Source: Geoglobus acetivorans
Lineage (GTDB): Archaea > Halobacteriota > Archaeoglobi > Archaeoglobales > Archaeoglobaceae
NCBI RefSeq assembly: GCF_039641995.1
Contig: NZ_CP087714.1
Span: forward strand, 1,116,001 to 1,180,000
DNA: 64,000 nucleotides
Direction of reading: 5' to 3'
The notes under the pieces were generated by a model, which was not told where the DNA came from, did not search any database, and saw nothing but the letters and a program-made list of their open reading frames with translations. This document shows positions 19,692-25,409 of this stretch, piece after piece. The translations under genes were made by a program, and so were the position numbers. Numbering within the stretch: the first letter of the stretch is position 1; the number at the start of each line of letters is the position of its first letter.

Positions 19692-19730
19692 AAATTAATA
19701 TTTGGGTTTGACAAACTCTGGGAGGGGTGG
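19692..19730 (+). promoter_or_regulatory. RuBisCO promoter and ribosome site
   Basis: AAATTAATATTT (19692-19703) is a TATA-like box and GGGAGGGGTGG (19720-19730) is a strong Shine-Dalgarno site ending 4 nt before ATG 19735. Unlike many genes in the window, this transcript should have a short leader. Confidence 0.55.
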
Positions 19731-19734
19731 AACA

Positions 19735-21069
19735 ATGACAGAGAGGTTTGACAAGATATATGATTACTATGTGGATAAGGGTTACGAACCGAATTACAAG
19801 AGGGATGTGGTTGCAGTTTTCAGGATTACGCCTGCTGAAGGCTACACAATCGAGCAGGCTGCTGGTGGCGTGGCTGCTGAAAGCTCAACAGGCACCTGGA
19901 CGACCCTTTACCCGTGGTATGAGAGGGAGAGATGGGAGGACCTGTCTGCAAAAGCATATGATTTCCACGACATGGGCGATGGAAGCTGGATTGTGAAAAT
20001 TGCCTATCCGTCTCATGCTTTTGAGGAGAACAACCTGCCGGCACTTCTTGCATCAATAGCAGGAAACGTGTTTGGAATGAGAAGGGTGAAGGGACTCAGG
20101 CTTGAGGACCTGTATTTCCCTGAAAAAGTAGTCAGGGAATTTAACGGACCTGCGTTTGGTATTGAGGGCGTTAGAAAAATGCTTGATATAAAGAAAAGGC
20201 CGATCTACGGTGTTGTGCCGAAACCTAAGGTTGGCTATTCTCCTGAGGAGCTGTACGCTCTCTCTGAGGAGCTCCTTCTATCCGGGGCAGATTATGTGAA
20301 AGATGACGAAAACCTGGCATCGCCCTGGTACAACAGGTTTGAGGAACGGGCAGAGGTGATGGCAAATATCATTGAGAGGGTTGAGAACGAGACTGGGGAG
20401 AAAAAGACCTGGTTTGCAAACATTACCGGGGACGTGAGGGATATGGAGTACAGGCTCGAACTTCTGGCGGAGCTTTCACTGAAACATGCGATGGTCGATG
20501 TCGTCATAAGCGGATGGGCAGTGCTTGAGTACATAAGGGACCTTGCGGAGGATTACGACATTGCGATACACGGACACAGGGCGATGCATGCGGCGATGAC
20601 GAGAAATCCCCAGCACGGTATTTCCATGTTCGTTCTTGCGAAGCTTTACAGGCTTGTTGGAATTGACCAGCTTCATGTCGGTACTGCCGGTGCAGGAAAG
20701 CTTGAAGGGAAGAAATGGGATGTGCTGCAGAACGCAAAGGTCCTGAGGGAGAATCACTATGTTCCTGAAGACGGTGACGTTTTCCACTTAGAACAGAAGT
20801 TTTATGGTATAAAACCTGCTTTCCCCACAAGCTCTGGAGGGCTCCATCCGGGCATACTGCCAAAAGTCATCGAGGCGCTTGGCACCGACATAGTTCTTCA
20901 GCTTGGCGGTGGAACCATAGGACATCCAGACGGACCAGGTGCCGGAGCTAAGGCGGTGAGACAGGCTTTGGAGGCGATTGTTCAGAACACTCCTCTCGAA
21001 GAATATGCAAAATCGCATAATGAGCTTGCAAGGGCGCTTGAAAAGTGGGGAACAGAAACCCCAATCTAA
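19735..21069 (+). CDS. rbcL: Form III ribulose-1,5-bisphosphate carboxylase/oxygenase
   Basis: 444 residues, a form III archaeal large subunit. The carbamylated lysine motif GADYVKDDE (Lys189), the HGHRAMHAA motif and the loop 6 lysine in GTAGAGKLEG (Lys322) are all present, so it should be active. It fixes CO2 onto RuBP, giving two 3-phosphoglycerates. In archaea RuBP is supplied from AMP through AMP phosphorylase (start of window) and R15P isomerase, not by a full Calvin cycle. Its TAA overlaps the convergent permease stop by 4 bp. Confidence 0.95.
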   Translation: MTERFDKIYDYYVDKGYEPNYKRDVVAVFRITPAEGYTIEQAAGGVAAESSTGTWTTLYPWYERERWEDLSAKAYDFHDMGDGSWIVKIAYPSHAFEENNLPALLASIAGNVFGMRRVKGLRLEDLYFPEKVVREFNGPAFGIEGVRKMLDIKKRPIYGVVPKPKVGYSPEELYALSEELLLSGADYVKDDENLASPWYNRFEERAEVMANIIERVENETGEKKTWFANITGDVRDMEYRLELLAELSLKHAMVDVVISGWAVLEYIRDLAEDYDIAIHGHRAMHAAMTRNPQHGISMFVLAKLYRLVGIDQLHVGTAGAGKLEGKKWDVLQNAKVLRENHYVPEDGDVFHLEQKFYGIKPAFPTSSGGLHPGILPKVIEALGTDIVLQLGGGTIGHPDGPGAGAKAVRQALEAIVQNTPLEEYAKSHNELARALEKWGTETPI

Positions 21070-22091
21070 CTTTTTATCAATTTTTCAGAGAACTTAATTG
21101 ATATGAGCATCAGAACTGATCCGAGAACCGGGTAGATCAGAAATTCCCATGGTTGCATGTAACTTCCGGCGGAGATTCTGGCTGAAACTCCTGAAATCAT
21201 TGATGGGTGTGTGAATGATACAGTAACGATTGAAACAGAAAGTATGGAGAATATGAGCTGACTTCTTTCTCTGTCCTTCAGGCCTGAGGATATGATGGCT
21301 CCTATGGACGCGAAAATCATCGAAAATGATACTGACAGAATGAGAAGAAGTACTGGGCGGAAAATGCCCGTGTTTATGTGGAGAAGGAACACCCATACGG
21401 CAGACAGAACAGCAGACACAATAAGGGCTGAAAAAACCTTGGCAGATATGAAATCCGTTACCGACATTGGTGTTGATAGCACGACATCCAGGGTCTTGGT
21501 CTCGTACTCTTCACTTATCAGGTCTATTACAAGTCCCCCTGCAATTATTGCTGTTGTGATTAAAAGCAGCGGGATGAGTATGGCATAAATGAACCGGAAG
21601 GTCATGGAGGATCCATCCCGGAGTTCAGTTTTTTCACCATTGAGACTGTAAACTCTGAAGCCATCGTCTCCCGGGATTCCCCGTTTTTCCCTCATTGCTT
21701 TCTGGTATTCCTTTAGAATCTCCTTGACCTGTGTGCCTGCCAGTATTCCGGTGATCTCGTTCTTCGGGAGAAATACTGTGACGAAATTAGCAGAGGTGTA
21801 ATTCTCTTCCGGCAAATAAAGCACGGCATCTATCTTGCCAGCATAGAAATCGTTTAACGCATCTTCAAGTTCTGAATATCTCTCGTCAGCAAATGATTTC
21901 AGGACCGGACAATTTCCCGCAACCCCAATCTTGACGCTGCCTGTGGCAACCGAATCCGGTTTGTAAAGGACAAGAAGCCCGAACGTTATTACGGATGTGA
22001 ATGAGGCGATGAAAATCAGTATGGCTATGGCAGACATGATGGTTCTTTCCCTTACTATGAGTCTGAGGTCTTTTCTGATCATCGCTTTCAT
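21066..22091 (-). CDS. ABC-2 type export permease
   Basis: 341 residues: one N-terminal helix, a long extracytoplasmic domain (about 40-165), then five or six helices, as in ABC-2 (NatB-like) permeases. LISEEYETKTLDVVLSTP is the characteristic coupling segment. It overlaps the other permease gene by 4 nt (ATGA) and belongs with the divergent ATPase at 23.8 kb. Cargo unknown; NatAB-type sodium or drug export are the usual guesses. Confidence 0.83.
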   Translation of the reverse strand: MKAMIRKDLRLIVRERTIMSAIAILIFIASFTSVITFGLLVLYKPDSVATGSVKIGVAGNCPVLKSFADERYSELEDALNDFYAGKIDAVLYLPEENYTSANFVTVFLPKNEITGILAGTQVKEILKEYQKAMREKRGIPGDDGFRVYSLNGEKTELRDGSSMTFRFIYAILIPLLLITTAIIAGGLVIDLISEEYETKTLDVVLSTPMSVTDFISAKVFSALIVSAVLSAVWVFLLHINTGIFRPVLLLILSVSFSMIFASIGAIISSGLKDRERSQLIFSILSVSIVTVSFTHPSMISGVSARISAGSYMQPWEFLIYPVLGSVLMLISIKFSEKLIKS

Positions 22092-23746
22092 CTACCCACC
22101 ACCATGTAATAGTTGTAGGCGAAGTGGATCGCCACTGCCAGAACGTATCCCGCTTTCCAGCTTCTCTTGGAAACGACAGCAAATGACGAGGATGCGGTTA
22201 TGTGTAAGAGCAGCGGGAAAATGAGAAGTTCACCGGGCAGCACCATGCTGTAGTCCTTGAACGCCTCGAGGAACAGAATGCCTTTTTCGGCGATGAAGAA
22301 TCCTGAAGCCACAATCACGGCTCTCTTCAGGCTCGGCGATGGAAGTATCAGTATCGATTTTAATGCTTCCTCGATAACCGCTACGCCGAGCATTATAAGG
22401 GCAAATGATGTTATTATGGGGACTGAAAGACCAAAAAACAGCAGAAAGAATTCCAGAAAAAGGGCGAGAAATACTGACAGGAATGCAAGGAAAAAGGCGT
22501 TTAGATCACTCGCTGCAGAATTCTTAAGCACATCTGCAAGTCTGCCAAAGGGCGATCTGGGACTGTAAAGAGTCTCGATATTCAGAGAGCTGGCCGACAG
22601 GACGAACCCCATGATTGTAAAGCCAGCAAGAATCAGATTCGAGAATATGAAATCCTGAAATTCAATCTTCTCTCCGGAGAGGTCCCTGAGGAGGAATGTT
22701 ATCGGGGAAAGGTCAGATAACGCAATTCCCGAGAAAACCGACGGAAGTATCAGATATATGATCAGAAACAGGTTGAAGACGAGGATCAGAAAAGTAAGCT
22801 CTCTGTATGATCTCGAATTGAGCGCTATGAACGTCTGAAATGAGAGAAAGGCGAGAATGGGTATGAGCATGAAGAGCAGCCCGTTCACTCTGAAGACGAT
22901 CGATGTTGCTGCTATCATCGCCACTGAGATGATGAAGTACGGGAGCAGCTTCTGGAAGATCAGCGAGTACGGGGAAAACGGTGCCGACAGCAGAACCTCC
23001 ATCCGCCTCATTCTGACATCCTCGGCAAGGGAGGAGGTGTACAGCTGCATTGAAAAAAGAGATGGAATGATGAAGATGAAAGCGATCACCATCTTTGAAA
23101 TCAGGGATGGCGGGCTGAACGTGTCTGGAGTCTCATATCCGGTTTCCTGCTTTTCAGGCAGTATGACCGATTTTCTTTCATCTTCAGTTAGACTCTGCTG
23201 GATTTTTCTCTCTATCTGGGCTTTCTGTTCCTCTTCAGTTACCTGATTCTTCTGTACGGAACGCTTCTCCAGCTGTTTCAGTGTTTCCTGGGGGATTGGT
23301 TTGGGGGAAAGTGCCTGAGGTTGCTTTCTTTCAAGGTATTCAGCCCTTACAAATACTGGAAAGGCTCTGGTGCCATAATTTTCGTACAGCCATTTTGTGA
23401 ACTCGTTTTTGATGTAGTTTTTCATTTCTTCTCCCGCAGACTGGGATTTGAACGAATCTGTGATGAATATTCTGTTTCCTGTTATAAAAACGTCTGATTC
23501 ACCATTTTTCAGCAAATCCATACCGTCCTGGAAATTATCAACGAGAATGTGGGTGAACAGTCTGTTCTCTATTTCGTAAACGTCACTAGCGGATGAGTAT
23601 ATCCAGGAATCTGAGAGAAATCCGTAGTTATATGATACAATGGATGCCACCAGCGATAATAGTGCAGTTACTGCAATGAGGAGCCTGAATTTATTTGTGA
23701 ACTTCTTCCTGCCTTTCCTGAACTCAGCTTTTATGAGTGGCAGCAC
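22088..23746 (-). CDS. ABC-2 permease fused to a PrsW-like membrane protease domain
   Basis: 552 residues from GTG 23746. Residues 1-370 form an ABC-2 permease (helix, extracytoplasmic domain, helices; DVRMRRMEVLLSAPFSP is the coupling segment). The C-terminal 150 residues are another polytopic domain with EEALKSIL (EExxK, about 457-461), FFIAEKG (about 482), LLHITAS and IHFAYNYY (about 540), the spacing of PrsW/CPBP-like glutamic intramembrane proteases. A longer frame reaches 24013 but crosses the divergent ATPase, so it is rejected. The protease activity is inferred from motifs. Confidence 0.75.
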   Translation of the reverse strand: MLPLIKAEFRKGRKKFTNKFRLLIAVTALLSLVASIVSYNYGFLSDSWIYSSASDVYEIENRLFTHILVDNFQDGMDLLKNGESDVFITGNRIFITDSFKSQSAGEEMKNYIKNEFTKWLYENYGTRAFPVFVRAEYLERKQPQALSPKPIPQETLKQLEKRSVQKNQVTEEEQKAQIERKIQQSLTEDERKSVILPEKQETGYETPDTFSPPSLISKMVIAFIFIIPSLFSMQLYTSSLAEDVRMRRMEVLLSAPFSPYSLIFQKLLPYFIISVAMIAATSIVFRVNGLLFMLIPILAFLSFQTFIALNSRSYRELTFLILVFNLFLIIYLILPSVFSGIALSDLSPITFLLRDLSGEKIEFQDFIFSNLILAGFTIMGFVLSASSLNIETLYSPRSPFGRLADVLKNSAASDLNAFFLAFLSVFLALFLEFFLLFFGLSVPIITSFALIMLGVAVIEEALKSILILPSPSLKRAVIVASGFFIAEKGILFLEAFKDYSMVLPGELLIFPLLLHITASSSFAVVSKRSWKAGYVLAVAIHFAYNYYMVVGR

Positions 23747-23762
23747 AGGAAAACTCAAACAA

Positions 23763-23772
23763 AGTTTAATAA
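23763..23772 (+). promoter_or_regulatory. TATA-like box of the ABC ATPase gene
   Basis: AGTTTAATAA lies about 27 nt before ATG 23796 in the 49-nt spacer shared with the divergent permease. No ribosome site follows, which suggests a leaderless mRNA. Confidence 0.5.
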
Positions 23773-23795
23773 ATTCTTTTCCCAGTAATTGTCTG

Positions 23796-24650
23796 ATGCT
23801 CAGAGCGATCGATCTCACAAAAAAGTACGGTGAATTCCTGGCTGTGAATGGAATAAGCTTTGAGGTTGGAAAAGGGGAAGTTCTTGGAGTTATTGGGGAG
23901 AATGGTGCCGGGAAATCCACGACACTCAAAATGCTTGTCGGGCTTCTCACACCAACTTCTGGCGAAATACAATACGATGGCAGAAATCTGTTCGAAAATC
24001 TGAATGCTATCAAAAGGAAAATCGGATATCTCCCAGAATTTGACGCCCTTTACGACAATCTCAATGCTAAGGAGTATCTCAGGGTTTTTGCAGAAATTTA
24101 TGGCGTGGATGCGGATACAGCCGAAAAAAGGATTTACGAACTTCTGGAAACCCTCAACCTTCCTGTTGATAAACCCGTGGGCGAGTTCTCCAAGGGCATG
24201 AAACGGAAGCTCTCAATAGCAAGAACTCTGGTACATGATCCTGAGTACCTCATCTATGATGAGCCAACGAGCGGTCTCGACCCATCAACATCCATGTTTG
24301 TTACAGAGTATGTCAGAGATTTGGGCAAACAGGGAAAGACTGTGGTTTTTTCTGCCCACAACATGTTCTACGTCGAATCTGCCTGCGACCTGCTTCTCAT
24401 AATAAAGAAAGGGAGGGTGCTGTATTTCGGTGAGCTTGACGCTCTCAGGGACAGAATGAAAAAGTACATTGTGAGCTACAGGATCGGAGAAAGGGAATTT
24501 GAAGACGTTTTTGAAGATGTCAGGGATGTTAACAGGCTTCTTGCCGAGATTACTGAAAATGGTGGTGAAATAATATCCATTGAAACAAGGGTTCCAAGAC
24601 TGGAAGAAATATACTTCACGCTCACAGATGGAAAAAGTATTATGGACTGA
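23796..24650 (+). CDS. ABC transporter ATP-binding protein
   Basis: 284 residues. Walker A GENGAGKSTT (near residue 38), signature FSKGMKRKLSIA (a common LSGGQ variant in ABC-2 exporters), Walker B YLIYDEPTSGLDP and switch His (SAHNM). It energises the two permeases encoded divergently at 21.1-23.7 kb. The next two genes overlap or touch it, forming an operon with a zinc-ribbon protein and a DtxR regulator. Confidence 0.92.
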   Translation: MLRAIDLTKKYGEFLAVNGISFEVGKGEVLGVIGENGAGKSTTLKMLVGLLTPTSGEIQYDGRNLFENLNAIKRKIGYLPEFDALYDNLNAKEYLRVFAEIYGVDADTAEKRIYELLETLNLPVDKPVGEFSKGMKRKLSIARTLVHDPEYLIYDEPTSGLDPSTSMFVTEYVRDLGKQGKTVVFSAHNMFYVESACDLLLIIKKGRVLYFGELDALRDRMKKYIVSYRIGEREFEDVFEDVRDVNRLLAEITENGGEIISIETRVPRLEEIYFTLTDGKSIMD

Positions 24651-24837
24651 TGAAGAATTCTGGATAATGAGAGAACTCAACGAGCTTTACTGTTCGAGGT
24701 GCGGTAGCGAGTTTGACATTAAGATAAGGAAGACAACAGGGTACAGCGGCCCACTTCACATCCCCAACCTGTTCTGTCCTTTCTGCGGCAGCCGGAGAGT
24801 GGTGAAAAGAAAAGGGATCTTTTTCGGTGAACTGTAA
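24628..24837 (+). CDS. Small zinc-ribbon protein
   Basis: 69 residues overlapping the ATPase end by 23 nt. Two CxxC knuckles (CSRCGSEF and CPFCGSRR) form a zinc ribbon. Function not recognised; its position between an ABC ATPase and a metal-dependent regulator suggests a part in the same response. ATG 24628 or 24667 could be the start. Its TAA overlaps the next ATG (TAATG). Confidence 0.7.
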   Translation: MEKVLWTDEEFWIMRELNELYCSRCGSEFDIKIRKTTGYSGPLHIPNLFCPFCGSRRVVKRKGIFFGEL

Positions 24838-25409
24838 TGGAAAGGATTGAGGAGTACCTCGAGACGATTTACGACATTCAGAAATCCGGCAGGGTGGCAA
24901 AGACGAAGGAAATTGCGGAGCGGCTCAACATAAAGCCTTCGAGTGTTACTGAAATGCTCAACAAGCTGAGTGAGATGGGTTATGTGGATTACCAGCCGTA
25001 TAAGGGGGCTACGCTTACGAGGAAGGGCCTGGATGTGGCAGAGCGAATCAAGAAAAACTACATGGTGTTCAAGAAATTCTTCACTGATTTTTTTGGTCTG
25101 GATGACGAAACTGCCCACGGCTTAAGCTGCACGCTCGAGCATATTGCGAGTGAGGATGTAATCGACAGGATATGCAGGGTGATATCCGGATACTGTGACG
25201 TTTGCGACATCTGCATTGAAAGTACATGCACGCTTGAGGAGGCCGGGAATGGTAGATACGTTGTCATTGTTGCTCCACTCTTCATGGAAAAGGCGGGGAT
25301 TTATCCGGGGAAAGAAGTGGAGGTGAAAAATGGCTTGCTTGTGGTGGATACCGATGAACTGATGGTCGACGATGGAGTGAAAAAGCTGATCCTCCTCAGA
25401 CCTCTATAG
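24837..25409 (+). CDS. DtxR/MntR-family metal-dependent transcriptional regulator
   Basis: 190 residues: N-terminal winged helix (IEEYLETIYDI, IAERLNIKPSSVTEMLNKL), dimerisation/metal domain with HGLSCTLEHIASED, a cysteine-rich section (CDVCDICIESTC, unusual) and a C-terminal FeoA/SH3-like domain. Such proteins repress metal-transport genes when bound to Fe(II) or Mn(II). It is the last gene of the ABC operon, so it may control that exporter. Its 3' end overlaps fdhD convergently by 14 nt. Confidence 0.88.
   Translation: MERIEEYLETIYDIQKSGRVAKTKEIAERLNIKPSSVTEMLNKLSEMGYVDYQPYKGATLTRKGLDVAERIKKNYMVFKKFFTDFFGLDDETAHGLSCTLEHIASEDVIDRICRVISGYCDVCDICIESTCTLEEAGNGRYVVIVAPLFMEKAGIYPGKEVEVKNGLLVVDTDELMVDDGVKKLILLRPL

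Follow-up and report, generated by a model that had tools for sequence, protein, structure and literature searches.

A single gene of the heat-loving archaeon Geoglobus acetivorans encodes one half of an exporter of the ATP-binding cassette (ABC) type 2 class, continued at its C-terminus by a membrane domain related to the intramembrane protease PrsW. The gene lies in a 64,000-nucleotide stretch of the genome (contig NZ_CP087714.1, positions 1,116,001 to 1,180,000; hereafter the window, to which coordinates refer unless another contig or locus is named). An earlier note, made from the letters of this DNA, had read the gene as an ABC-2 permease fused to an intramembrane protease-like domain; profile and fold matches, together with the invariance of the motifs, bear this out, and the fusion is real. 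We favour, with a confidence somewhat better than even, the view that the product is one of the two permease subunits of a heteromeric ABC-2 exporter and carries a C-terminal PrsW-type intramembrane protease domain. Judging from sequences and predicted models, an exporter with such a protease attached would probably process or clear membrane peptides.

The fusion gene reads on the minus strand from a GTG start codon at 23746 to the stop codon at 22088, and encodes 552 residues. It was delimited by calling open reading frames (ORFs): the start is consistent with the aligned homologues, and the plus strand of 22088–23746 is full of stops. The predicted model and its structural matches to ABC exporter chains assign residues 1–395 (22562–23746, minus strand) to the ABC-2 exporter half, which includes a soluble region after the first transmembrane helix. 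Conservation, a profile match and the predicted model assign residues 396–552 (22091–22561, minus strand) to a PrsW/APH-1-type membrane domain.

Conserved motifs of the C-terminal domain

Homologues of the fusion protein were compared in two partly overlapping sets, the first of which holds the proteins found in 23 of 40 genomes near the window's. The second is an alignment of 39 sequences, namely the window protein and those of 38 of the 44 loci obtained by a genome scan with a pattern from the ABC-2 half ([SA]RSY[RK]E...), which matched 47 stretches, 44 of them confirmed. Since the pattern comes from the ABC-2 half, the C-terminal motifs played no part in the initial retrieval; the confirmation step used the whole protein. 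The six loci left out of the alignment contain ambiguous residues (L037 and L055) or are cut at the 5' end (L048, L061 and L066) or at the 3' end (L071).

Four motifs, all encoded on the minus strand, characterize the domain: E459-E460-x-x-K463 (22358–22372), F483-x-x-x-E487-K488 (22283–22300), H515 (22202–22204) and H541-x-x-Y544-N545 (22112–22126). Neither the 23 fusions of the first set nor the 39 sequences of the wider one, in which identity goes down to about 21%, show any variation at E459, E460, K463, F483, E487, K488, H515, H541 or Y544; position 545 is N in 29 sequences of the wider set and D in 10. When the C-terminal domain was aligned alone, these nine motif residues were the only invariant columns, which argues that the motif pattern is not due to chance. 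The succession FxxxEK, H, H is visible by eye in the tails of the 43 loci that reach the C-terminus (L071 being cut), including the five other loci excluded from the alignment (L037, L055, L048, L061 and L066). EExxK, FxxxE and two histidine-bearing helices, which had been announced for the C-terminal 150 or so residues, are indeed found within the last 157 residues of the window protein, and the motifs recur in all 39 aligned sequences.

The form taken by these motifs is that of PrsW. In the available text of PMC4602095, PrsW is defined by EExxK, HxxxD and an extra histidine, and the CPBP (Rce1-like) form by EExxxR and HxxxN, without the extra histidine; FxxxE and H were added to the PrsW definition from our alignment of stand-alone PrsW proteins (described below). 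EExxK, FxxxE, H and HxxxD/N fall in this order on successive helices of the predicted model, and occur in all 39 sequences. The CPBP form does not fit: although HxxxN itself is present in 29 sequences, all 39 have K463 of EExxK and the extra H515. Of the 'PrsW/CPBP-type' pattern put forward in the earlier note, the PrsW part therefore stands and the CPBP part does not, being at odds with EExxK, FxxxE and the extra histidine.

Profile comparison with stand-alone PrsW proteins

The stand-alone PrsW alignment comprises 12 archaeal proteins from relatives, one of them from the window's own genome, chosen among 20 non-fusion loci by excluding long multi-domain, partial, near-duplicate and motif-poor sequences. 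Compared by hhalign with these 12 proteins, the profile of the fused domain gave a probability of 96.4 and an E value of 1.4e-9, with the four motifs in register. Twelve decoys (one reversed, ten block-shuffled and one made from the ABC-2 half) gave E values of 0.054 or worse.

At E ≤ 1, the Pfam family PrsW (PF13367) matches nine of the 39 C-terminal domains, with a best E value of 5.3e-8, and the Rce1-like family (PF02517) matches two, with a best E value of 2.5e-6; these counts and the form of the motifs led us to rule out CPBP in favour of PrsW. A search of the 40 genomes with PF13367 passed the cut-off in the C-termini of three of the 23 fusions (G030, G035 and G008, the last with in-frame neighbours). 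A stand-alone PrsW above the Pfam cut-off was also noticed in the window's own genome (L089, G000:C1:1818066-1818527), in which both forms coexist.

Predicted structure and membrane orientation

The AlphaFold model of the C-terminal domain, with a predicted local distance difference test score (pLDDT) of 91.7 and a predicted template modelling score (pTM) of 0.87, shows a short leading helix followed by five long ones. When 388 Foldseek candidates were re-aligned with VIA, the top match was APH-1 of gamma-secretase (5a63_C; Z 12.2, 3.2 Å over 141 residues, 14% identity). Chain 6 of the rabbit multipass translocon entry 7tm3, which we take to be TMEM147, came second (Z 12.0), and two further APH-1 entries followed at Z 11.5 and 11.3; the matches after these, with ABCA1 among them, stood at Z 7.4 and below. 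By this gap between the APH-1 entries (Z 11.3–12.2) and the rest, and subject to the chance range of helical bundles given below, the model contains the core helix bundle common to PrsW, CPBP and APH-1. Comparison of the predicted structure with PrsW and CPBP folds, suggested in the earlier note, thus leads to the APH-1 fold of that superfamily, to which APH-1 and PrsW are both assigned in the available text of PMC4602095. Solved Rce1 is not among the matches listed by VIA, an absence that excludes nothing. According to the helix bounds of the model, E459/E460, E487, H515 and H541 would lie at a similar depth, some 7 to 14 residues away from the cytosolic ends of their helices. Clustering of the Glu residues, whose absence would have refuted the earlier note's reading, is borne out only indirectly.

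The full-length model (pLDDT 80.6, pTM 0.68) was used for the ABC-2 half. Its residues 1 to about 396 were aligned by VIA with the exporters ABCG2 (Z 14.8), ABCH-9C (Z 14.7) and NosDFY (Z 14.6), and with a chain of CcmABCD, CcmB (Z 14.2). The Pfam family ABC2_membrane_3 matches 11 of the 23 fusion members at E ≤ 0.1 (best 3.3e-11). With Z values of up to 14.8 and an ATPase gene adjacent at 35 of the 44 loci, this half has the predicted fold of an ABC-2 exporter and a candidate partner ATPase.

The distribution of positive charges suggests that the fused domain sits in the membrane as PrsW does. Indeed, the mean number of lysines plus arginines per loop alternates along the fusion domain (3.36, 0.18, 1.82, 0.49, 2.54 and 0.21) in the same phase as along the matching loops of stand-alone PrsW (3.25, 0.33, 1.92, 1.08, 2.67 and 0.08, for loop borders placed by eye and from hydropathy), so that by the positive-inside rule both are predicted to be the same way up.

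Several observations weigh against the assignment of a PrsW-type protease domain and an ABC-2 half. The Pfam models PrsW and Rce1-like reach only the few C-terminal domains counted above. The domain of the window protein itself scores 17.6 bits for Pfam PrsW (E 0.0029), under the gathering cut-off of 23.5 bits, and a full-length scan of the same protein gives no hit to Pfam PrsW at E ≤ 1; for ABC2_membrane_3 it scores 14 bits, under the 31.6-bit cut-off. A profile search of solved structures, made with the full-length and the C-terminal profiles, found no relative, and Foldseek alone returned no match in the PDB with E ≤ 0.001 for either the domain model or the full-length model. A Z of 12 falls inside the chance range of helical bundles, which reaches about 13 according to the tool; we therefore place the weight on the large gap that separates APH-1 and 7tm3 chain 6 from the next row, and on the independent profile match. 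Besides, APH-1, the closest structural match, is not itself the protease of gamma-secretase.

The remaining difficulties concern the PrsW relationship itself and the surroundings of the gene. Two helices of stand-alone PrsW, the first and the last, are missing from the fusion: the first, which bears YxYxKDxxxxEP, is present in all 12 stand-alone proteins, and the profile alignment to the fusion begins after it. Motif 2 also reads EK in the fusions, as against an invariant EN in stand-alone PrsW. Because of the missing YxYxKDxxxxEP helix and of EK in place of EN, we term the domain PrsW-related rather than canonical PrsW; the place of PrsW's first helix may be taken by the one that ends the ABC-2 half. 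Finally, no substrate gene recurs beside the module among the neighbour ORF clusters of the 44 loci.

Distribution and inheritance of the fusion

The fusion is widespread among the relatives of G. acetivorans, as a survey of archaeal genomes reveals: at E ≤ 1e-10, its family profile finds a match in 147 of the 294 genomes that were sampled in the window's phylum. All but four of the best matches listed extend to profile position 553 or beyond, out of 557; of the four, G242 reaches 532 and G275 reaches 264, and G102 and G128 are each split into two pieces that together reach 555. The named loci belong to Archaeoglobi, Methanophagales, Methanomicrobiales and Methanospirillum, Halobacteriales and Salinarchaeum, and unclassified Euryarchaeota, with two Altiarchaeales/Altiarchaeota and one Woesearchaeote as more distant members. 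The genome scan, which used a single pattern, yielded no bacterial locus.

Both halves of the protein appear to have evolved together. Distances computed on the two halves correlate with a Mantel r of 0.92, a value that none of 999 permutations equalled or exceeded, and with a Spearman coefficient of 0.77. The ratio of nonsynonymous to synonymous substitution rates is 0.049 for the N-terminal half and 0.066 for the C-terminal half in the one genome pair compared (the window versus L002), indicating purifying selection on both. The simplest reading is that of an old fusion inherited as a unit. A 169-residue partial second copy of the C-terminal domain lies beside a permease-like ORF in genome G258 (L137:3278-3787, minus strand); we rejected it as a stand-alone domain since a full-length copy exists elsewhere in that genome, and it is probably a decayed duplicate or remnant.

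The conserved gene module

Two genes accompany the fusion at most loci. A second ABC-2 permease gene (21066–22091, minus strand; Pfam ABC2_membrane_3, E 5.3e-19) overlaps the fusion gene by four bases (22088–22091) on the same strand in the window, and its homologue adjoins the fusion at 43 of the 44 loci, L071 again being cut by the contig end. On the other side, an ABC ATPase gene (23796–24650, plus strand; Pfam ABC_tran, E 3.5e-33) diverges from the fusion gene. An ATPase homologue is adjacent to the fusion at 35 of the 44 loci, in the divergent orientation at 31 and co-directional at four (L065, L067, L069 and L072). Three of the other nine loci are cut on that side (L048, L061 and L066), and the six that remain, all from Archaeoglobus or Archaeoglobi, have no ATPase homologue in the available stretch (L037, L038, L039, L043, L054 and L057). 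Eight genomes of two such genera were searched for a distant copy: an ATPase homologue 53–55% identical lies away from the fusion in six of them (G009, G020, G045, G139, G176 and G012), in which the next-best ATPase match is 41% identical or less. One of these distant ATPase genes, inspected by eye (L138), had no permease-like ORF visible beside it.

The fusion, second permease and ATPase families are the only neighbour ORF clusters found at more than eight of the 44 loci. In the window, the ATPase gene is followed on the plus strand by genes for a small Zn-ribbon protein (24667–24837; weak Zn-ribbon matches) and for a DtxR/MntR-type regulator (24837–25409; Pfam Fe_dep_repress, E 1.4e-28), both probably outside the conserved module. 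Their homologues occur at two of the 44 loci (L031 and L034, both Geoglobus); a third Geoglobus locus, L033, lacks both genes in the roughly 1.9 kb that it covers on the ATPase side, and in L032 the sequence breaks off within the ATPase gene. We rejected the DtxR and Zn-ribbon genes as parts of a conserved system on the basis of the two loci out of 44 and of their absence from L033.

The earlier note had also spoken of an operon holding the Zn-ribbon and DtxR genes. The overlap and common strand of the fusion and second permease genes agree with this description; the ATPase, Zn-ribbon and DtxR genes do not, since they lie on the opposite strand and diverge from the fusion gene across a 49-bp gap (23747–23795). 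This gap contains an AT-rich stretch (tttaataaat) and may hold overlapping archaeal promoters. Beyond the second permease gene, the plus-strand ORF at 19702–21069 resembles, by eye and from its translation, an archaeal RuBisCO of the form III type.

Proposed mechanism and alternatives

In the heteromeric exporter that we favour, the ATPase, presumably as a dimer, would power a pair of dissimilar permease halves, one being the fusion protein and the other the second permease. The five-helix PrsW-like domain, which places its conserved Glu/Glu/Glu/His/His set at mid-helix in the model, would most likely cut a membrane-embedded segment of a peptide or protein; remnants of signal peptides, propeptides and single-span regulatory proteins are examples of what it might cut. 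The cleavage product would be removed or secreted by the exporter half. We infer from the data above that the subunits assemble, that the domain is proteolytic, that this activity is coupled to ATP hydrolysis and that the substrate is a peptide.

A more ambitious version would make of these parts a single ATP-driven machine that extracts a membrane peptide, cuts it with its built-in PrsW-type site and exports the product. It would serve to clean the membrane or to mature peptide signals through much of one archaeal phylum, and would have been built independently of the catalogued ABC permease/CPBP fusions. We hold this version only tentatively, judging it rather less than probable as a whole. 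The occurrence of the same fusion in many related archaea hints at a physical coupling of cutting and export.

The alternative with the best claim, which we nevertheless think unlikely, is that the PrsW-like domain has no catalytic role and serves as a scaffold or as a receptor for membrane peptides, in the manner of APH-1, and passes a hydrophobic peptide uncut to the transport path. The best structural matches, APH-1 and 7tm3 chain 6, agree with this possibility, as neither is to our knowledge a protease, and so does the EK of motif 2 in place of the EN of stand-alone PrsW. However, E459, E460, K463, E487, H515 and H541 are all invariant in the 39 homologues, whereas in a scaffold the loss of some of these residues would be expected, and APH-1 is devoid of the EE pair.

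It is improbable, in our estimation, that the domain is an active protease serving regulation instead of export, which would clip a membrane-bound regulator or the exporter itself according to the transport state. DtxR regulators are soluble proteins that bind DNA, unlike anti-sigma factors of the membrane, and no regulator recurs among the 44 loci beyond DtxR at its two. The points in favour are the regulator gene close to the module in the window and the precedent of Bacillus subtilis PrsW, which clips RsiW (PMC4602095, available text).

We give very little credence to a third possibility, that the cluster of Glu and His residues binds a metal, either for its export or for sensing it, with the domain forming part of a metal exporter tied to the DtxR and Zn-ribbon genes. 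The DtxR/MntR-type and Zn-ribbon genes that adjoin the ATPase gene, both in the window and at the two Geoglobus loci, hint at it, but this link is weak because the neighbourhood is found at two of the 44 loci, as compared with a fusion present in half of the phylum sample (147 of 294 genomes); besides, motifs and fold indicate PrsW. Lastly, the idea that the C-terminus consists simply of extra transport helices with a coincidental motif, which could appeal to the full-length Pfam and Foldseek negatives, is scarcely credible and was rejected, being contradicted by the 39/39 invariance, by the PrsW profile match compared with its decoys and by the APH-1 fold.

Relation to known systems

The PrsW family of intramembrane metalloproteases (PF13367; MEROPS M82) and the fused domain share the order EExxK, FxxxE, H and HxxxN/D, the profile match and the alternation of positive loops; they differ in that the domain described here stands behind an ABC-2 permease. 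ABC permease/protease fusions as a kind are already known. Indeed, the NCBIfam entry NF041647 (ABC transporter permease subunit/CPBP intramembrane protease), whose members are bacterial, joins by its name an ABC permease to a protease-type domain of the wider CPBP/PrsW superfamily. We nevertheless rejected membership of our fusion in this family: NF041647 matches none of the 39 fusion proteins at E ≤ 1, and none of 60 genomes has any match above its curated 435-bit cut-off. Since it matches none of the fusions and weakly matches the neighbouring unfused permease (E 7.3e-8), the two fusions, set apart here by model matches and not by member sequences, probably arose separately, from different permease halves and different protease branches. 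We regard the archaeal fusion, with its PrsW-type domain, as a variant of this kind that falls outside NF041647.

APH-1, the best structural match of the fused domain (5a63_C), differs in being a scaffold within a protease complex. Functional parallels come from the EcsAB/RasP and PptAB/Eep pairs of Firmicutes, whose proteases, RasP and Eep, belong to the site-2 type of metalloproteases and not to PrsW. In the available text of the two reports, each ABC transporter is functionally linked to an intramembrane protease, transporter and protease being separate polypeptides: when EcsAB is lost, RasP is inhibited in its intramembrane proteolysis, and Ecs is suggested by the authors to rid the membrane of peptides (PMC2996298); the peptides that PptAB exports mature with the help of the membrane protease Eep, an interplay between the two being raised by the authors as one hypothesis (PMC7564271). 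These precedents make it plausible that an exporter should carry its own intramembrane protease. PrsW has, moreover, been proposed in work on polymorphic toxins to act as a conduit that processes and extrudes cargo (PMC3482391, available text). Against published links between separate proteins, a natural fusion in about half of the phylum sample would argue that both activities can belong to one machine, and it offers a single, probably heat-stable polypeptide for testing this idea.

Two reviews of archaeal membrane proteases, in their available text, name PrsW and do not mention ABC fusions (PMC9263693, PMC4343526). No description of a fusion between a PrsW-type domain and an ABC-2 permease was found in the literature searched, of which partial texts were available and whose coverage was incomplete, so that the superfamily literature may mention one. 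For a copy of the fusion on a haloarchaeal plasmid (a single matching record), the annotation reads 'ABC transporter permease subunit' and nothing more, which illustrates how the protease-like half can go unnoticed.

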